Below are positions 2,354 through 11,821 of a stretch of DNA of 64,000 bases, piece by piece. This DNA is from Leptospiraceae bacterium (lineage in GTDB: Bacteria > Spirochaetota > Leptospiria > Leptospirales > Leptospiraceae). A model generated the notes under the pieces. The model did no database searches, was not told the DNA's origin, and saw nothing but the letters and a program-made list of their open reading frames with translations. Each line of letters begins with the position of its first letter. The first letter of the stretch is position 1. The position numbers and the translations under genes are program-made. The stretch lies in the NCBI GenBank assembly GCA_022402465.1, contig JAKRSH010000034.1, forward strand, positions 62,001-126,000, in the 5' to 3' direction.

Positions 2354-3115
2354 ATGGCATTAATCGAAGAATTTGACAAACAAGGAAACTTTCTCTTTCG
2401 ATGGAGAACCTACGTTCCTGGAGTAATACTAATTAGCTCTCTGTTCCTATTGCCGAAGGTCTACTATTGGGGAGAAAGCTATTCTACAAATTTAATCTAT
2501 ACTTCAATTTGTCTTCTGATAAGCTTAGCTGGGCTTGCTGTTCGTTGCATAACAATTGGTTACACTCCAGCTAGGACCTCAGGTAGAAATACTAAAGAAC
2601 AGGTAGCAGATGTAGTCAACCAAACCGGAATCTATTCCACCGTCCGCCATCCTTTGTATTTAGGAAATTTCCTGATGTATCTAGGTGTGGTTGCTCTTCT
2701 CAAATCTCTGTTATTCGCCGCTATCTTCATTTTATTCTTTTATTTATACTATGAGAGAATCATGTTTGCTGAAGAATTTTTTCTTAGAGGCAAATTCAAA
2801 GATGCCTATTTGAAATGGGCGAATATTACTCCAGCCTTTATCCCAAGTTTCAAAAATTACAAACCTGCCAATTTGAATTTCTCATTCAAAAATATTCTAA
2901 AAAGAGAATATCCTGGATTGTATGGCATCATTGTAATTTTTACAATTTTTGATATTGCAATTCTATATTTCAATGAACAAGGTAGATTTGCATTAGGTTT
3001 TCTAGAAGCCTTAAGACTTGAACAGATTGTATTCTTTGGAGCTGGTTCACTTTTCTATATTTTGGTGAGAATTATCGTGAAAACCACTAAGATTCTTCAT
3101 GTCGAAGGAAGATGA
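2354..3115 (+). CDS. lmtA: Membrane methyltransferase, LmtA-like (lipid A 1-phosphate methyltransferase)
   Basis: A polytopic protein of 253 residues from the isoprenylcysteine carboxyl methyltransferase / phospholipid methyltransferase superfamily. Four to six hydrophobic segments flank the family core GIYSTVRHPLYLGNFLMYLG around residues 93-112, which forms the S-adenosylmethionine site, with the typical downstream Glu-rich stretch (YYERIMFAEEFFL). In Leptospira a member of this superfamily, LmtA, methylates the 1-phosphate of lipid A. The conserved GYTPARTSGRNT segment and length fit that enzyme, but another membrane methyltransferase cannot be excluded. It overlaps the next gene by 17 bases on the same strand. 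Confidence 0.65.
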   Translation: MALIEEFDKQGNFLFRWRTYVPGVILISSLFLLPKVYYWGESYSTNLIYTSICLLISLAGLAVRCITIGYTPARTSGRNTKEQVADVVNQTGIYSTVRHPLYLGNFLMYLGVVALLKSLLFAAIFILFFYLYYERIMFAEEFFLRGKFKDAYLKWANITPAFIPSFKNYKPANLNFSFKNILKREYPGLYGIIVIFTIFDIAILYFNEQGRFALGFLEALRLEQIVFFGAGSLFYILVRIIVKTTKILHVEGR

Positions 3116-4142
3116 TAGACTTGTATTAAAATTTATCCAAGACCTGAAATGGGTCTTGGAATCACCCAGCCTTCTTTCGAATTCTTTTTTCCCTTCAGAC
3201 ACAATAAATCTTAATCTTCATTCTGAACTCTTTGTTCGACTAAGAAATTATTTTTTGCCTAAGTGTAAGGCTTTAGATTTTTCCTTCAACGAAATCCTAA
3301 GCTTTCTTTTAGCTCGTTCTACCAATCGATTGGGGAAATACTATGAATTTCTCCTAGAGTTTTTATTTATAAAATTTCCTGAAATTGATCTAATTCAGAA
3401 AGGACTTCCTCTCAGAGAAGACCATTCTAAAACAATAGGTGAATTTGATTTCATACTATTTGATAGAATGCAAAATAAAATGATTCACCTTGAAGTAGCG
3501 GTAAAATTTTATCTTAAGCTTTATAAAGAAAATGAACCTAAATCGTATATAGGTCCAAGCTTTAATGATAGATTAGACAAAAAAATGTCCAAGCTAGTGA
3601 AACAAACAAGGCTTTCTGAATTGAAGCCAGCGAAAACACTCCTAAAGTCAGTGGTATTGGAATGGCATTTGAATAATAGTAAGGACTTGATTCAGGAAGT
3701 TGAAGGGACTGAAACATCGCATAAAAAGATTCAAAATAATAAGTTTCAAGTAGGTCATAATTTCCAAGCTCAAGATCTAGATGAACTTTCAATCCAAAAG
3801 GTAGCTCTTATCCAAGGGAGACTTTTTTATCCTTATTTAGGTGACAAAATGTACCCAGAGAGCTTAAACCCTGAGCACAATAAATCATTTTTTATTACAT
3901 TAGATCAAATTTCCACTCAAAGAAAATTCCTTAGAAAATTTCTCATTTTACCAAGGCTAGATTGGCTCTCTCCACCCTCTTCCTGGTTGTGGTCTCAAGC
4001 TTATTACTTTCGGACTTTTGAAAAACTTTTATCCCAACAAATGCAGAAATTCAATACATCCATCTACGTTCTTAGCAAAGATTTAAATTCTAAAGTCCAA
4101 AGTTTTTTTGTTCTCCCGGATTCCATACCCCCTCCTCCGTAA
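3099..4142 (+). CDS. DUF1853 family protein
   Basis: A 347-residue soluble protein matching the DUF1853 pattern. Around residues 112-132 it has GEFDFILFDRMQNKMIHLEVAVKFYL, that is a D...E-x-A-x-K arrangement resembling a PD-(D/E)XK nuclease core, preceded by an EFLLEFLF helix. The family has no established function. It overlaps the LmtA-like gene upstream (start at 3099, inside that gene) and its 3' end runs 53 bases into the convergent mtnA gene. The name rests on motif recognition. Confidence 0.6.
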   Translation: MSKEDDRLVLKFIQDLKWVLESPSLLSNSFFPSDTINLNLHSELFVRLRNYFLPKCKALDFSFNEILSFLLARSTNRLGKYYEFLLEFLFIKFPEIDLIQKGLPLREDHSKTIGEFDFILFDRMQNKMIHLEVAVKFYLKLYKENEPKSYIGPSFNDRLDKKMSKLVKQTRLSELKPAKTLLKSVVLEWHLNNSKDLIQEVEGTETSHKKIQNNKFQVGHNFQAQDLDELSIQKVALIQGRLFYPYLGDKMYPESLNPEHNKSFFITLDQISTQRKFLRKFLILPRLDWLSPPSSWLWSQAYYFRTFEKLLSQQMQKFNTSIYVLSKDLNSKVQSFFVLPDSIPPPP

Positions 4143-5166
4143 TGATCTTAGTGATATATTGAGCAGGAGTTATATCAAAAGAAGGATTCAAAGCCTTAGC
4201 ATCCTTGGGAGCTATGACACCTTCACCAAGAAAACTCCTTCCTTCTGTATTTTTTAGAAAACTTAAATTTGTTACTTCTTTAGGATCTCTCATTTCAATA
4301 TGGATTTCTGATCCTGATTTAATATTAAAATCAAAACTATCCTTAGTTCCCGCAACATAGAAGGGTACATTTGCATCCTTTGCTATTATGGCAAGTCCTC
4401 GAGTTCCTATCTTATTAGCAGTATCACCGTTAGACGCAATTCTGTCACAGCCTACAATTACAGCATCAATTTTTCTATCATTCATAAGCCATGCAGACAT
4501 TCCATCAGTAATGATATAGCATTCTATTCCTTCTTCTTGCATTTCGAAAGCTGTAAGACGAGATCCTTGTAAGTAAGGTCTTGTTTCATCTGCATAGACA
4601 GTCAGTTCGAAGCCAGCATCTCGTAAGCTTCGTATTATACCTAGTGCTGTTCCATGTCCTGCTGTTGCTAGAGAGCCAGTGTTACAATGAGTGAGAATGT
4701 TGAGTTTCATTTGAGATTTTGCAAATAGAGAAAGTGCATTCTGTCCTATTTTTTCATTGGCAAGTCTATCTCTTTCTTTTTCTCCAATGGCAAAATTCTC
4801 ACAGGCTAAAAGAAACTTTGGATAATCCATCTGTTTTGCAATAAATTCTTGTATCTTATATTTGAAATCAAGGATCATGCGTGATAAATTCACGGCAGTG
4901 GGTCGAGATGCTAATAATTTAGCGAACATTTCGTCCACGATCTCTTTCTTCGGAATCAAGTTCAATTTCCCTATTTCCATTACAATTCCAAAGGCTCCTG
5001 AAATTGCTATGGCTGGGGCACCTCGAACGACCATTTCACGAATTGCATAAATGGTAGAATCTAAGTCATCTGCGATATAGTAGGTTTTCTGAGAAGGAAT
5101 CAATCTTTGGTCAAGAAGGTGACATTTAAATTCCTTCCACTGTATGGGTTCAAGTTTAGAGGACAT
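4090..5166 (-). CDS. mtnA: S-methyl-5-thioribose-1-phosphate isomerase
   Basis: MtnA converts 5-methylthioribose-1-phosphate to 5-methylthioribulose-1-phosphate in the methionine salvage pathway. The 358-residue protein has the family length and signatures: EMVVRGAPAIAISGAFG near residue 45, LTHCNTGSLATAGHGTALG around 158 (catalytic Cys in HCNTG), ADETRPYLQGSRLTAFE around 192, and VGCDRIASNGDTANKIGT around 238 (catalytic Asp). It resembles eIF2B alpha-type proteins, but the HCNTG and GCDRI motifs support the isomerase. Upstream is the phasin-like gene in divergent orientation; the 3' end overlaps the DUF1853 gene. Confidence 0.93.
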   Translation of the reverse strand: MSSKLEPIQWKEFKCHLLDQRLIPSQKTYYIADDLDSTIYAIREMVVRGAPAIAISGAFGIVMEIGKLNLIPKKEIVDEMFAKLLASRPTAVNLSRMILDFKYKIQEFIAKQMDYPKFLLACENFAIGEKERDRLANEKIGQNALSLFAKSQMKLNILTHCNTGSLATAGHGTALGIIRSLRDAGFELTVYADETRPYLQGSRLTAFEMQEEGIECYIITDGMSAWLMNDRKIDAVIVGCDRIASNGDTANKIGTRGLAIIAKDANVPFYVAGTKDSFDFNIKSGSEIHIEMRDPKEVTNLSFLKNTEGRSFLGEGVIAPKDAKALNPSFDITPAQYITKIITEEGVWNPGEQKNFGL

Positions 5167-5267
5167 AATACTGAGTGTAAATCAGCTAAGGAAAAGTATA
5201 AAAAAAAACTATCTTGGTTTAAAAAAAGACGTGCAAGGTTTCTTGAGGTACTTAAACTAAGGTCATA

Positions 5268-5284
5268 TTTGTGCGTTGCACAAA
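5268..5284. promoter_or_regulatory. Palindromic operator candidate upstream of the phasin-like gene
   Basis: The perfect inverted repeat TTTGTGC-GTT-GCACAAA (7-base arms, 3-base centre) ends 22 bases before the ATG of the phasin-like gene. Its core TGC-N3-GCA resembles the TGC-rich dyads bound by PhaR-type repressors of polyhydroxyalkanoate granule genes, and a phaR homologue lies in this window at 42809. The link is inference from motif similarity. Confidence 0.45.
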
Positions 5285-5306
5285 AGACGAAAAAGGAGTA
5301 AAAAAA

Positions 5307-5525
5307 ATGGAAAAAGAAATTAAAGACGGTTTGAATTTTGTATTAGGTGCTGTTTCTAAAGTGAAAGAAGAATTTGATGGTGGTTTCCAAGGAATCCAAT
5401 CAAACTTCCAAAGCTTAATTGAAAAAGGTGCACAAGACACTAGCGAGTTATCTGTAAATATCAGAAAATATGCTCAAGAAGGCATCAACTACATTCAAAC
5501 AATTCTACCTAAAGAATCTAAGTAA
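5307..5525 (+). CDS. Small phasin-like protein
   Basis: A 72-residue helical, amphipathic protein without a signal peptide. It resembles the phasin-related small proteins that coat polyhydroxyalkanoate granules: repeated KVKEEFDGGFQGIQSNFQ and IEKGAQDTSELSVNIRKYAQ heptad-like stretches, ending in KESK. The ATG at 5307 is chosen because AAAGGAG lies just upstream; an in-frame upstream start at 5271 would sit inside the palindrome. It has its own intergenic promoter region divergent from mtnA. Its stop overlaps the end of the convergent Cys-rich gene by a few bases. Function is inferred from composition. Confidence 0.6.
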   Translation: MEKEIKDGLNFVLGAVSKVKEEFDGGFQGIQSNFQSLIEKGAQDTSELSVNIRKYAQEGINYIQTILPKESK

Positions 5526-6222
5526 TTAGATTTTCTAACCAGTTGAGGCTAGGTGAGTTCTTCTTAAGGAACTTACTTAGCTTTTTTATTAAACTTTCCG
5601 CAGTCTCTGTTTCCAAAGATACTATTTCAAAAGAAGTCCTTTGGTCGGCTATGCCTCGAAATCTAAGATATTCATGCAGAAAGCCAAGAACAAACTCACG
5701 GTGTTTTCCAAAAAGCCAATCCTTGGGATATTTTAATTTGGTAAATAAAAGTTCTAAGCAAGTTGTGATTTCATGATTTGCTGCAAGTTGTGAGTAATCC
5801 AAAGAATTTGATGATAATTCTTGGAAGACACTTTTCCATTGTGCCGAATCTGGATTTTCTCTATTGCGACATTGGTAGCCTAGACAGATAGAACTTCCAT
5901 AAAATGAGTAATTTTGGCTGAGAGGATTTCCTGTCCTACTTGGATGAATCATACAACCCATCTTATAGCCTCCATCTAAGTAACCAAGAAAGGGGCAATT
6001 GTAGGTGCTTTCATCTTTTTTGGAAATTTGCTTTTCCTTTGCCTCTCTGGATTGTCTGTAAGCTGGAAGGGAATGAGAAATTTTGAAATCAACAGTATTC
6101 TGAAATTCTTCTGTCCTTTGAAAGAGCAGTAGGGTGATTTCTTTTCTTGTTAGATTCAGATTAAAAACTCCACAGCAAGAACCGCAAGAAACTGATCCAT
6201 TATCTGGGTAGCATAAACTCAT
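5518..6222 (-). CDS. Hypothetical Cys-cluster protein
   Basis: A 234-residue protein with an N-terminal CGSCCGVFNL cluster (residues 13-22), plus CPFL near 84, GCMIHPSR near 97 and ICLGYQC near 120. This recalls metal- or Fe-S-binding YkgJ-type proteins (CxxCC plus later Cys), but the remainder is unlike them. There is no signal peptide or membrane segment. It lies 11 bases downstream of the CHAT protease gene on the same strand and could be the fourth gene of that operon. Function not assigned. Confidence 0.6.
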   Translation of the reverse strand: MSLCYPDNGSVSCGSCCGVFNLNLTRKEITLLLFQRTEEFQNTVDFKISHSLPAYRQSREAKEKQISKKDESTYNCPFLGYLDGGYKMGCMIHPSRTGNPLSQNYSFYGSSICLGYQCRNRENPDSAQWKSVFQELSSNSLDYSQLAANHEITTCLELLFTKLKYPKDWLFGKHREFVLGFLHEYLRFRGIADQRTSFEIVSLETETAESLIKKLSKFLKKNSPSLNWLENLIT

Positions 6223-6233
6223 AATTGTGAAAT

Positions 6234-8063
6234 CTAAGTTGTCGTTTTATTCTTATAATCTATGATCTGATAACCTGGAAAGGAAAGAGCAAGTTCTCCT
6301 TTCTCTTGGTTGTCTATGATATTTGCATGGTAGGGTATCATGATTTTTTTCTTTTCATTGTAAACCACAAGATTGCCTCGGAATTTTTCAATTTGTTCTC
6401 CCACATAATCTTGTTTAACAAGGGGAGCTGTAATCAAAGAAGATTGAGGCTTCATACCTCGGAAGAAATAATGGTAGTTCGAATTTTCTGATACAAGGAA
6501 AATATTGATTTTCTCAAATTCTTCTAATTCAACTAAAAGATTTTCATAAAAATATTGGTAAGTGATAAGATAGGAATCACGAGAACTCTCATCAATTTTT
6601 CCTTCTTTGTACATCAAGGTCCAATTTAATAATTTACGTATAACATCATGATTGGAATTTAAAATATCAATGATAGATTCAACATGGGGAGTTATTTTTA
6701 ATTTTTTGAAATCCCAAAGGCAGGCAAGGATCAATTCCCACCACTTAGAAATAGGAATAGAATCGTCTTGGTTCTCTGGAAATTTCTTTCCAAGACTATG
6801 GTATTTATGATCACTGAATACTATAGATCCAAGAACCTTGGAAAATTCCTCAAAGCACTGAATCAATTTCTCCATCTGAAGTTCCGTTGGCTGATTTTCC
6901 TTTTGAGAATTAAGAAAATTTACATAAGATAGTGCAATTGGTGTAGGATAAAAATTCATCACAAAAGATGGATTGATAATCTTTTGGGCTGCTGGATCGT
7001 TCTCCGGATCAAGTAAGATTGTAAAATCAGGATTGCCATAAAGTGAATAGTTAGCCCATGTTAAATCATTTGGGTCATAATTTCGTCTAGCATATTCACG
7101 TGTCATAAATAAAGACTCTCCAACCGTCTTATCGCTGAAGAGGTAAGAATAAAAACGAATTGTAAAATCTATCGTGTTCTGGTTGTCTAAGATTTCCCAA
7201 TTTGTTCCTATGAATGTTTTGATTCCTGACATGAGAAAAGAACCAGCAAAATTATTCATAATATTGGTATTTATACTCTTGCTAACTTGTGTTGAAGAAA
7301 GGCATGAATTGCTAAAGACGATATCTGTAGAAATACCTGAATTCTTAATCTCACGCGCCTTTAGAATTTTGCCATCTGCAAGAAGCCAGCCATTTTCTAA
7401 AGGATCATCAGAAAAGTAAAGATGACCGGAGTAATGGATAATATTTTTGTCCTTGATTAAAGATAAGAGCTTAAGCTTTGTTATATGCTTTCCGCCTATG
7501 AACTCCATTTCTAATCTTGATGAAGATACTTTCTCCGAAAGGATTCTAAAAAGTTCTTCTCCTTCCCTCTGAGCCCATACCAAATCCTCTGTTGGATCTG
7601 CAATAATCAGCATCTTCAGTTTTTCTTTACCGTGGTTAGGCTTCACATGGAAGCCTCCCCTTATTGTTTTTCCTATATGGAACTTATCTGCAAGAAAGCA
7701 ATTTCCATCATGTAAAACTTCCCAAGGAATTAAGGCAAGTCTTGGATCTATATTGAAATGTATACTTTTGTCCGTTGCCAATCTTAGTCTTTCAACAATT
7801 TCAGAAGGAAAAAATTGGTGAAAGAATGTCTGACCCAGAGTCTTGAGCTCACTAAGAATATCTGTATTTAGTATAGTTGATTTGTTGGTTGAGTTCTGAA
7901 CAATGTTTGAAACTCTAACTAAGTTCTCAATCTCAGAAATGTATTCTAAAAGGAGATCATCATCAATGGTAGATTGTAAGTGTGATTCCCCACTGGGCGT
8001 GTTTCCATCTAGGACGTTAAATATGTTAACATTGCCGACTCTATCAATGATCAGGCTGATCAT
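6234..8063 (-). CDS. CHAT-domain (caspase-like) protein
   Basis: A 609-residue soluble protein. The CHAT peptidase domain spans about residues 85-360, starting with the hallmark [12 protein letters not shown] (109-120) and ending in FIGTNWEI (near 284). The predicted catalytic dyad is His214 in IIHYSGH and Cys254 in VFSNSCLSS, 40 residues apart as expected for a clan CD cysteine peptidase. The C-terminal 250 residues are unassigned and may bind a substrate or signal. The gene follows a middle protein (9-base gap) and a sigma factor on the same strand. By analogy with CHAT proteases that cleave partner proteins, the neighbour is a candidate substrate; that is inference. No strong ribosome binding site is visible and the start codon lies in a hairpin. 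Confidence 0.85.
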
Positions 8064-8065
8064 TG
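8045..8065 (-). promoter_or_regulatory. Inverted repeat enclosing the CHAT gene start codon
   Basis: Ten-base perfect arms (CAATGATCAG and its complement) with a one-base centre cover the ATG at 8061-8063. As RNA this can form an 8-bp stem CAAUGAUC/GAUCAUUG closing a five-base loop, with the start codon inside the stem. Because the previous gene stops only 9 bases upstream, translation of that gene would be expected to open the hairpin, giving translational coupling. Confidence 0.5.
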
Positions 8066-8072
8066 GTAAAAA

Positions 8073-8834
8073 TTAATCTACAATGAGATACAAGTCAACT
8101 AATTTATTTGAAGCGGAACCTAGAAATTCAACTGTATATTCTCCTTCTTTCAAGCCAGAGAAATTTACAATGCCATCAGAATTCAATCGATTGGACAAAA
8201 TGAACCTATTTTCTTTGCGAAGAATTACTTGTTTGTATGTTTCAATAGAATCATTTTGATCGATTTTAATACTCAGGAAAACTTCTTCTGGAGTTTCTCT
8301 AACCATTTGGTAAAAGAATTTCTGCCCATTTTGGATGGTTTCTTCGAATACCACATGGCTTGCTGAATTTTCTGTAACAGGATTCAGAGTGCCTAGTGAG
8401 GATCGGATGTCTGGAGAGAGTGAAAGTCTTGGTGTTAGAGTTAAATCATCTTTTAAAGATTCAAAAACCTGAATTCCCATTTGAGAAAGTCTTACCAAGA
8501 GCGTTTGTTTTCTTTGAGGCTTTTCTAAATTCTTTTCTGTATAACGAAGTAGAAAATCGGGAACCTTGGCTTTGTTACCAGCTTGCAATTGTAATTCGGC
8601 CTTAGCTACATCTAGATCTGCTTGGAATTCCTCTAGTTCTTTGGATGATAAATTGAGGGAGGGAGAGATAGAATTCATTTTGGAAAGTGTTAAAATTACT
8701 TCAACCTTGGAAATTGTATGGAAAATAGAATCATTGTCTAAGGCATCATCAAAGACTTGCTGATCGTTTTCAAAATACCTTTCAATTGCGTCATCTGGAG
8801 TTGATGGGTTGGTATCGTTTTTCTTTGATGGCAT
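8073..8834 (-). CDS. Hypothetical protein between sigma factor and CHAT protease
   Basis: A 253-residue acidic soluble protein with no membrane segment and no recognised family. The N-terminal 120 residues are helical (DDAIERYFENDQQVFDDALD, then a Leu-rich EELEEFQADLDVAKAEL-like region and VPDFLLRYTEKNL). The C-terminal 100 residues look like a beta-sandwich (KFFYQMVRETPEEVFLSIKI, FSGLKEGEYTVEFLGS). The start is supported by GGAG ahead of the ATG. Sitting between a sigma gene (41 bases away) and a CHAT protease gene (9 bases), it is a candidate cytoplasmic anti-sigma factor and/or protease substrate, by analogy with Csx30. No sequence similarity to Csx30 was demonstrated. Confidence 0.6.
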   Translation of the reverse strand: MPSKKNDTNPSTPDDAIERYFENDQQVFDDALDNDSIFHTISKVEVILTLSKMNSISPSLNLSSKELEEFQADLDVAKAELQLQAGNKAKVPDFLLRYTEKNLEKPQRKQTLLVRLSQMGIQVFESLKDDLTLTPRLSLSPDIRSSLGTLNPVTENSASHVVFEETIQNGQKFFYQMVRETPEEVFLSIKIDQNDSIETYKQVILRKENRFILSNRLNSDGIVNFSGLKEGEYTVEFLGSASNKLVDLYLIVD

Positions 8835-8875
8835 ATCCTAGCTCCTCGCTCTTTGAAAATCTGACGACAAGTTAT

Positions 8876-9787
8876 CTAAGAAAACTCATCGAATTTAATA
8901 TTTTTTTGCAATTTTTCGACTACCCGAATCAAAGTCACACTCACTCCACCTTCAGAAATTCCTAAAAGATGAGCCACCTCCTTATAAGGAGTCCTAGAAA
9001 GAAAATGACCCTTTTGCTTTCTTTCGATTAATTTACGTCTTTGTTCGTATTTTTTATGAAGAGAGGCTCCGATTTTATCAACGAATGGTAGGTTGGATTT
9101 AGAAGCCTCAACTGGCTCTGCTTTCTGTTGCTCTTTAAGATCTAAGATGCTTAAGTATATAGCGGTTATCTTATCTTCTAATTTGTTGATATCCTCTTCT
9201 TTATTTGAGAGAGAAGTTCGTATGTCTAAGATCCATTTCTTAAGATCGGGGAGCTTGATTTTTGCCTTTTCTAAAATATATTCAATTTCATCTTTTTCTA
9301 ACTGCAGGTAAAATATATAAGACAATTTGAATATTACTCGACTCTCGATTTTTATTTCTTGTAGATTGATGAGGAATTGTTCAGAGATTTCAACCGCCTT
9401 TTCTTTTTCATAGATTAAAGGATCGGCTTCATCTTCAATGGTATTGTATTCTTTACCTTCTGCATTTGTTCTTGTTATAGATTGAATCTTCACTTCTTTA
9501 ATGGTTCTCTTCCAATCAATAAGTAAGTTTCTCAGAACAGAATAGAACCAGGTTTTGAAGCTAGACTTACCTCCAAAACTCTGCAACCTTCTACCAGATT
9601 TAAGTCTCTCGAAAGCATAGATATAGAAATCACTTGCGTCATCTTCTGAAAGATGGAAGACTCGAATTGGGAAATTATAAATATCTTCAGAATAAATTTC
9701 AAAGAATTTTTTTAGAGCGCTGGGATCCCCATTTCCTCCATCGGAAATAAGTTGATTGACCTCTTGTGGACTTAGTAGTTTTTGCAT
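8876..9787 (-). CDS. Sigma-70 family RNA polymerase sigma factor, ECF-like, with long linker
   Basis: A 303-residue protein with sigma region 2 at about residues 25-95 ([16 protein letters not shown], then [18 protein letters not shown] for promoter melting) and region 4 at the C-terminus ([29 protein letters not shown], a helix-turn-helix around 265-293). Between them lie about 160 residues of charged helices, far longer than the 50-residue linker of a normal ECF factor, which may be a regulatory insertion. It heads the operon with the middle protein and CHAT protease and is divergent from the M23 peptidase gene 45 bases away. Confidence 0.8.
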
Positions 9788-9832: not shown

Positions 9833-10744
9833 ATGAAATCCTTTACTTTGTTATATTTGCTAGTCTTCCTCATCCATTGCAAGGAATTTTTTCCATCCAT
9901 TCAATCACAGGATAAAAAACATTGGAATTTTACTTGGCCAGTTCACACGGACCAGATTTCAGATAGAGTATCATCTGTTTTTGGTGAATCAAGGTGGGAT
10001 CATTTCCATAATGGGGTTGATATTTCTTCGTATTTAGAAAAAGTCCATTCTATAGGAGAAGGTAAGCTTTTGTATACTCGGTATTCATCGGATGATCCCT
10101 TTCATGAAGAATGGGGTTCTGGTGATACAGTTTGGATAGATCATGGTAAGGGTGCCTATTCAGCATATTATCACCTTCATCCATCCCATGGTAACTTGGG
10201 GATAAGTATTCAAAATGGTCAAGAAATTGGAATCACTGGTAATACTGGTCACTCCAGTGGAGGGCATTTACATTTTGTACTAAGTTTAGAATATGGAAGG
10301 AAAATAGTGAATCCTCTCATCTATCTACCCTCTATCGTGGATGAAACAGCGCCTCTAATTGGTGGACTTTTCGTACATGTAGGTGAGAGTTACACAAATA
10401 TAAATTCCGGAGATAGTATTTCTTTATCCGATACTTTTCCATTTACCGTTTTAATCCAAGACAGTGGTGTGAGAAAGAGCCAAAGATTTGGTGTTCAAAA
10501 TGTCCAATTTAACTTAAATGGGAAACCTGTTCAAAAGAGTAATTTCAACTCCATCCAATTTGAAAATGAAGATTGGCTCAATGAAAATGGATTCAAGTTT
10601 AATGATCTATTTTTGAGAGACAGGTATTTAGTTGGAAATCTAGCCCTTCCATCAGGTGAACATACTATTGAAGTTGTAGCTACAGACTTTCATGGGAACA
10701 TGGCCGTGAAGAGTTTTACTTTCTATGTTACCAGGACTAAATGA
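9833..10744 (+). CDS. M23 family (LytM) metallopeptidase, probable lipoprotein
   Basis: A 303-residue envelope protein. It starts with a hydrophobic signal ending in FLIHC (Cys16), a plausible spirochaetal lipobox. The LytM domain spans about 35-165 with intact zinc ligands: His59 and Asp63 in HNGVD, and His145/His147 in GGHLHF, plus His114 in YYHLHP. Such enzymes cut cross-links in peptidoglycan peptides. Residues 165-303 form a beta-rich C-terminal domain. A broken paralogue of the last third of the protein lies at 13273, about 2.5 kb downstream, so the region has been rearranged. Confidence 0.85.
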
Positions 10745-11143: not shown

Positions 11144-11809
11144 TTATGCAGAGTTTATCATGTGTCCTGTCTTTACCAAAATTACGGTTTCTTGCTCAAC
11201 AAATGGATGATGAGTAGAAAGATGAGGACTTCTTATCCAAGTGCCTGCAGGGTAGCGAGCATGCTCATCTATGAATTCTCCTGAAAGGACAAAAATTTCT
11301 TCACCTCCCCAGTGTTGGTGTGGTAAAAACCTTTCACCTGCCGGCCACTTAACGAGAGCAGTACTCTCTGTTTGGTAAGTATGCAATGGCATAACCTTAA
11401 GCCCTCCATGACCTTGGTGCCAGAACTGCTTGGATGTATCAATATTAACAGACTGCAAGTCCTTAGGATTAAAATGACTAAGCTTGACAAATAGAGAACA
11501 TCCCTCAAGGCTTCCAGGCTTATGTTTCGATCCAGGTGGATTTCGTAGATATGATCCAGTTGGATAGCTTCCTTTTTCATCAATAAATTCACCTGATAGA
11601 ACGAATATTTCTTCGCCATATTCATGTATGTGTTCTGGAAAGAAGGTATTGGGAGCATATCGAACAATGCTTGTTGATCGTCCTGTCTCCTTAGCCTCAC
11701 GTTCTAGCATAATTCGATCAACACCAAACGAAGGACTGGCTGACCAGTCCATTTTGTCTGTATTGATAACAATCCTTTTAGTAAAATCTAAATTATACGG
11801 ATATTCCAT
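11144..11809 (-). CDS. Tandem cupin (ChrR-type) protein
   Basis: About 221 residues made of two repeated cupin domains of the ChrR/cupin_7 type. Each carries a metal-binding motif followed by an almost identical stretch: FFPEHIHEYGEEIFVLSGEF near 55-75 and FLPHQHWGGEEIFVLSGEF near 160-180, each then EFIDE...YP.G...R.P. Cupins of this type bind Zn or Fe and act as anti-sigma sensor domains or dioxygenases. There is no ASD zinc-binding anti-sigma domain here, so a free-standing enzyme or sensor is more likely. The ATG at 11809 is preferred over a TTG at 11818. It follows the SDR gene in the TetR cassette. Confidence 0.75.
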   Translation of the reverse strand: MEYPYNLDFTKRIVINTDKMDWSASPSFGVDRIMLEREAKETGRSTSIVRYAPNTFFPEHIHEYGEEIFVLSGEFIDEKGSYPTGSYLRNPPGSKHKPGSLEGCSLFVKLSHFNPKDLQSVNIDTSKQFWHQGHGGLKVMPLHTYQTESTALVKWPAGERFLPHQHWGGEEIFVLSGEFIDEHARYPAGTWIRSPHLSTHHPFVEQETVILVKTGHMINSA

Positions 11810-11821
11810 AAATTTCAAATA

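Follow-up and report, generated by a model that had tools for sequence, protein, structure and literature searches.

Can a caspase-like protease free a bacterial sigma factor from its inhibitor outside the setting of clustered regularly interspaced short palindromic repeats (CRISPR)? This question is raised by a locus in the window, a 64,000-nucleotide stretch of DNA from a Leptospiraceae bacterium (assembly GCA_022402465.1, contig JAKRSH010000034.1). Three adjacent minus-strand genes encode a sigma factor of the extracytoplasmic function (ECF) type, a middle protein and a protein with a CHAT domain, here called SIG, MID and CHAT. An earlier sequence-only reading had placed the three frames correctly and had proposed the roles of sigma factor, cleavable inhibitor and protease for their products. 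Our analysis suggests that the locus probably represents a CRISPR-free circuit of Leptospira-related spirochaetes, an old gene set in which the protease cuts the inhibitor and frees the sigma factor. The unit furthermore has a fourth co-directional gene, encoding a cysteine-rich protein (ZN), and a conserved divergent neighbour encoding an M23 peptidase, both absent from the earlier account. The genes of the unit are closely spaced, with 41 nucleotides between SIG and MID, 9 between MID and CHAT and 11 between CHAT and ZN. Their coordinates are given in Table 1.

Table 1. Features of the SIG-MID-CHAT-ZN locus; positions are those of the window.
Feature	Position	Strand	Basis
SIG: ECF-type sigma factor, 303 residues	8876-9787	minus	TIGR02937 match; present in 29/30 order genomes
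MID: putative soluble anti-sigma factor without zinc ligands; N part helical, C part beta	8073-8834	minus	
CHAT protein, 609 residues, caspase-like domain at about residues 97-344	6234-8063	minus	PF12770 and structural matches
ZN: Cys-rich protein	5518-6222	minus	remote PF03692 resemblance; accompanies CHAT in the order
M23 peptidase	9833-10744	plus	divergent from SIG; PF01551 6.1e-16
Putative catalytic His214 codon (CHAT)	7422-7424	minus	invariant, 27 aligned sequences
Putative catalytic Cys254 codon (CHAT)	7302-7304	minus	invariant, 27 aligned sequences
MID R144 codon, candidate P1 residue	8403-8405	minus	column conservation and low pLDDT
CGTC element, -10-like, in SIG-MID gap	8863-8866	minus	conserved upstream of MID

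Gene content and gene order carry much of the argument. The comparison covered the window's family (8 genomes from 5 genera), its sister family (21 genomes with both SIG and CHAT), the order (30 genomes) and the class Leptospiria (48 genomes), within a survey of 392 genomes of the phylum whose members are cited here by G numbers. SIG, MID, CHAT and ZN follow each other in this order in all 8 genomes of the window's family; in G001 and G006 a contig break before the rest of the unit puts SIG on a separate contig. Identity to the window's proteins across the family is 46-55% for CHAT, 43-56% for SIG and only 25-33% for MID, so MID evolves fastest. Strong matches (E<1e-50 for SIG, E<1e-40 for CHAT) exist for each of the two proteins in 29 of the 30 order genomes, the single miss being G009 (0.9 Mb, 76% completeness), and in 17 (SIG) and 15 (CHAT) of the 18 other class genomes; there are none outside the class. 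Both proteins are found in 44 of the 48 class genomes, and SIG occurs without CHAT in G145 and G220 (83% and 54% complete). Outside the class we examined all 15 genomes with a SIG or CHAT match at E<=1e-15. SIG adjoins CHAT in eight of them: six have CHAT-SIG-MID on one strand (G032, G040, G056, G066, G074, G094), G044 has CHAT-SIG at the edge of its contig, and in G031 SIG-MID and CHAT are transcribed divergently. Linkage of the trio thus takes two forms, which differ in gene order between spirochaete families, and this is strong evidence that the three genes serve one pathway. The "SIG" match of G060 looks spurious.

What kind of protein is MID? The sequence-only reading could name no family for it, and at the level of sequence libraries this holds, as nothing passes the cut-off in Pfam and nothing was found in NCBIfam or PADLOC. 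A search of the PDB with its sequence returned one irrelevant match. The ancestry of MID becomes visible through its relatives. The zinc-finger family zf-HC2 (PF13490) is over the cut-off in 5 of 6 tested MIDs from the distant operons, and the zinc motif Hx3Cx2C is retained in 6 of 8 class-level MIDs. The MID profile of the order matches the class-level profile over nearly its full length (E 2.5e-25), with the N part aligned to the zinc region, and matches the profile of the distant zf-HC2 MIDs in its C part only (E 2.1e-7). The motif is absent from the window's MID, whose genome has no zf-HC2 match anywhere; MIDs of the order are without the full motif, two in the window's family retaining CxxC. 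Because of these profile matches we regard MID as an anti-sigma factor by descent: by sequence comparison, the window's protein is a derived form of a zf-HC2 anti-sigma factor, of the zinc-binding anti-sigma (ZAS) type, that has lost its zinc ligands. It is encoded beside an ECF gene, is homologous to ZAS proteins and would presumably bind SIG. The helical-then-beta build that had been predicted for it is seen in the models, where the helical part mostly has a predicted local distance difference test score (pLDDT) <50. A fold search with the SIG-MID model gave generic immunoglobulin-like matches only.

If MID is cut, its conservation pattern points to a candidate site. Only M1, P92, R144 and G231 are invariant across the 27 MIDs of the order. 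The R144 column has Arg in all 27 of these and in 8/8 from the rest of the class, and outside the class Arg in 5 and Lys in 3 of 8, so that a basic residue is present in 43/43 MID relatives. In the model of the window's MID, R144 lies inside a stretch with pLDDT <50 (residues 77-169); its equivalent in the G007 MID, R143, also falls in a low-pLDDT stretch (residues 452-463 of the fused SIG-MID model). As the only invariant basic residue, and placed in a loose loop, R144 would suit as the P1 site of a clan CD protease, and we propose it as the candidate on the strength of the alignment and the models. A structural role for this residue is possible as well.

The features of SIG and ZN open another possibility for the substrate. 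SIG matches TIGR02937 (sigma70-ECF) at 1.1e-33 with 116 bits (cut-off 42.9) over residues 24-296, which covers ECF regions 2 and 4; the Pfam matches to these regions (66-95, 262-295) fall under their cut-offs. Since a match of this span compares with a model of 165 positions, SIG has about 100 extra residues between the two regions, which are joined by a linker of roughly 160 residues. The PDB search with SIG found ordinary ECF factors only. ZN has eight invariant cysteines and one invariant His, resembles CxxCxxCC (PF03692) under the cut-off (E 0.024) and may be a metal or redox sensor. It follows CHAT in 8/8 genomes of the window's family and at 18/21 sister-family loci, the exceptions being three loci of which those of G015 and G017 are at contig ends, and by coordinates the CHAT and ZN genes overlap by 4 nucleotides in 6/8 genomes of the window's family. 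Across Leptospirales ZN is tied to CHAT and not to SIG. In our view it is the likeliest input or regulator of CHAT. CHAT might instead cut SIG within the linker, or ZN, and MID would then be an ordinary anti-sigma factor that lets go of SIG by some other route. The long linker is conserved across the order and has no other assigned role, and in most order genomes the CHAT and ZN genes overlap or are next to each other, even in those with MID at a different place. But beside the distant CHAT-SIG-MID operons there is no ZN-like gene, so ZN is unlikely to be a general substrate, and the conserved basic residue in a variable loop of MID also speaks against the cutting of SIG or ZN, which we judge rather unlikely.

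CHAT matches PF12770 over residues 97-344 at 2.6e-20 with 73.5 bits (cut-off 24), and no other protein of its genome has a CHAT-domain match at E<=0.001. H210, G213, H214 and C254 are invariant in 27/27 full-length CHAT proteins of the order, an alignment made without two fragmentary genes, that of G015 at a contig end and that of G018 with an interrupting stop; the first piece of the latter still retains the His and the Cys. Both residues are also invariant in 7/7 distant relatives; the apparent His214/Cys254 dyad of the earlier reading is conserved. Structure models were built on 9 and 13 sequences. The fused MID-CHAT model has a mean pLDDT of 62, with a caspase-like core (from about residue 410) mostly at 70-85 and lower values in the loops. 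Its best structural matches are SAVED-CHAT, gingipain RgpB, the anti-sigma factor DdvA (residues 800-991), separases and Csx29, and Csx29 chains head the Foldseek list. The CHAT part (fused-model residues of about 401-610) aligns with 8tl0_C at Z 18.4 (root-mean-square deviation 2.4, 179 aligned residues), with RgpB at Z 16.2, with the DdvA structures 8rw5 and 8rot at Z 16.2 and 15.6, with separases at Z 12.8-14.8 and with Csx29 (8eex_B) at Z 13.5; this part of the model has the caspase-hemoglobinase fold. PDB sequence searches with CHAT found nothing. Craspase has a tetratricopeptide repeat (TPR) part before its CHAT domain; the protein here gave no Pfam TPR match at E<=1, which leaves room for divergent repeats. 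Taken together, the conserved dyad and the modelled fold indicate that CHAT is probably an active protease. Gingipain R and separase cleave after Arg. One could also imagine that the domain binds MID or SIG and alters the complex by contact, since DdvA unites an anti-sigma factor and a caspase-like domain in one protein; yet two invariant dyad residues would be unexpected in a scaffold, and we give a non-proteolytic role little credence.

The expression of the unit may be part of the circuit. CGTC is a common -10 element of ECF promoters, and it occurs in the last 70 nucleotides before MID in 21 of 27 order genomes (shuffled mean about 2.3-2.4, maximum 7), counted without G018, where the start of MID is uncertain, and G020, which has no MID in the set. 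Among class-level genomes, 5/8 have it within 80 nucleotides of MID. The element is not enriched upstream of SIG (3/29) or CHAT (1/20 and 0/8), and no -35 element could be fixed, as the upstream hexamer is inconsistent between genera. In the sister family, sharing of the promoter is not supported for CHAT (1/20) and marginal for pdxJ (7/13 in 80 nucleotides, against a shuffled maximum of 7). The pattern suggests that MID, together with CHAT and ZN in the window's family, is transcribed from an ECF-type promoter in a feedback loop.

The mechanism that we infer spans the binding of SIG by MID, the cleavage and its site, the signal, the use of the promoter and the role of ZN. SIG would be kept inactive by MID, a soluble anti-sigma factor of ZAS descent. 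A signal, for which ZN is the likeliest input or regulator, would activate the CHAT protease through His214/Cys254, and activated CHAT would then cleave MID on the C-terminal side of one basic residue, for which R144, in the loop next to the beta domain, is the best candidate. The MID remnant would dissociate or be degraded, leaving SIG free for RNA polymerase, and expression of MID (with CHAT and ZN in the window's family) from the CGTC promoter would close the loop. That CHAT cuts MID and so releases SIG is the best explanation of the whole, and we hold it to be fairly probable. A bolder version is tentative and rather less than probable: here the locus would be a CRISPR-free caspase-type switch, maintained throughout the class and shared with other spirochaetes, in which CHAT cuts ZAS-derived MID after the always basic residue (R144 in the window) and thereby releases a sigma factor that forms a class by itself. 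In Leptospirales the cut would be gated by ZN as a metal or redox sensor, and Craspase would be the CRISPR-captured version of an older circuit of protease, inhibitor and sigma factor.

Several observations weigh against cleavage of MID by CHAT. In the sister family M23-SIG-MID and CHAT-ZN are two separate loci; there a MID profile match follows SIG in 19/21 genomes, with an unmatched open frame in G020 and G022, and a motif scan places CHAT after a pdxJ-like gene in 13/21. G164 has SIG and an R-motif MID but no CHAT match at E<=1e-15, nearby or elsewhere, and CHAT occurs without nearby SIG in G041 and in one genus (G091, G120, G148, G152). The CHAT gene of G018 is interrupted by a stop, and in one Leptospira interrogans record (NZ_CP092665.1) the CHAT frame ends at 403 residues, with the dyad part kept and no ZN after it. 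The fused SIG-MID model is poor (pLDDT 51.9, predicted template modelling score 0.29) and too weak to reveal an interface, the MID linker has pLDDT <50 in the MID-CHAT model, and the comparison of class-level and distant MID profiles is weak (E 0.004, probability 8%). The co-occurrence across the class could be plain vertical inheritance, and because of this confounding by common descent the two gene orders are the stronger evidence. Co-conservation stands for gene content, with SIG and CHAT together in 44/48 class genomes, and fails for tight linkage in the sister family. Evidence for the three proposed roles goes well past the analogy, with the two gene orders across the phylum, the ZAS relationship of MID and the conserved dyad. 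Could SIG and MID then be a self-contained ECF switch, with CHAT and ZN a separate pair that has joined them incidentally in the window's family? The two pairs are unlinked in the examined class genomes as well as in the sister family, but SIG, MID and CHAT lie side by side, differently ordered, in four further spirochaete families, and we find this separation improbable. Still less plausible is a MID that SIG needs as a FecR-like co-activator, with CHAT switching the system off, since MID is related to ZAS-type anti-sigma factors and has no membrane or receptor part assigned, even if a FecR-like protein has both an inhibiting and a helping effect on LIC_12757 of L. interrogans (PMC12655853).

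Some further observations concern the surroundings of these genes. M23 adjoins SIG in 7/8 genomes of the window's family and 18/21 of the sister family, and several genomes of the latter have sigma-54 activator-like genes upstream of pdxJ/CHAT. At 11144-11818 the window has a gene for a double ChrR-type cupin (PF12973, 1.4e-62), beside genes for a short-chain dehydrogenase/reductase and a TetR protein; this cupin domain is otherwise known from zinc anti-sigma factors. In G032 a second caspase-like, secreted-looking protein is encoded about 1.2 kb before CHAT-SIG-MID (2831-3877 on the reverse-complemented locus). In the genus of G091, G120, G148 and G152, CHAT belongs to the same family, has about 440 residues and lies without SIG or MID nearby; in G120 the next gene after it is amidase-like. 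For plasmid CHAT genes of other phyla (14 records), no sigma gene is annotated nearby in the 4 non-Leptospira regions that were read.

The results also bear on L. interrogans, where the orthologue of SIG is LIC_10225. NZ_CP092665.1 carries M23, SIG (WP_001054050.1), MID (WP_000377027.1) and the shortened CHAT frame, which lies at 5001-6212 of the region and is missing from the PLSDB gene table. On this 109-kb "plasmid" there are also dnaE and further genes of a chromosomal kind. WP_001054050.1 is LIC_10225, with 301 residues, and appears as an "unclassified" ECF factor in a review table (PMC12655853); a transposon-mutant study (PMC5100919) has lic10225 among its tabulated genes. With our results LIC_10225 gains likely partners and a mechanism, and C254 and R144 become residues of interest.

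How does this set compare with known systems? Our literature search found no description of a SIG-MID-CHAT operon, although one may exist elsewhere. In the CalpL/CalpT/CalpS system of type III CRISPR a protease cuts an inhibitor and frees a sigma factor, which is the likeness; the difference is that CalpL is a SAVED-Lon protease coupled to CRISPR. DdvA, which belongs to Myxococcus xanthus together with the sigma factor DdvS, resembles the spirochaete set in that its structures (8rw5, 8rot) show a caspase-like domain within an anti-sigma factor. It differs in being a single transmembrane protein by its PDB title, whereas the spirochaete set has a separate soluble protease. Actinobacterial ECF54 has genes with CHAT, subtilase and carboxypeptidase domains nearby, and control by proteolysis was proposed because of the CHAT genes in its context; in that account (PMC8999054) ECF54 is described without an anti-sigma factor, whereas the spirochaete set has one. 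The closest parallel is Craspase of type III-E CRISPR, where Csx29 cuts Csx30, the inhibitor of CASP-sigma, at residues 427-429 (PMC10028731). Both have a CHAT protease of caspase-like fold, a two-part (N/C) inhibitor and an ECF-like sigma factor encoded together; the Leptospiria set differs in a ZAS-related MID with a conserved Arg and in its presence in nearly every genome of the class. The suggestion that it works without CRISPR agrees with the surroundings of the locus: there are no direct repeats of 22 or more nucleotides within 120 nucleotides of each other in window positions 1-26000, and PADLOC had no match in 14/14 scanned nearby proteins, a scan that did not include a genome-wide search for Cas7-11. 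A PDB search with the MID profile (E<=1) brought up no Csx30 chain, though a remote homology may exist. Since no CRISPR features lie near and MID is apparently of other origin, we do not count the set as a member of Craspase, but if our interpretation holds it would work like Csx29-Csx30-CASP-sigma. Experiments support CHAT-triggered sigma release in a rare CRISPR type; to find its three roles filled without CRISPR, at one or two loci in nearly all genomes of a class, would point to a general bacterial use of caspase-like proteases in transcription control.

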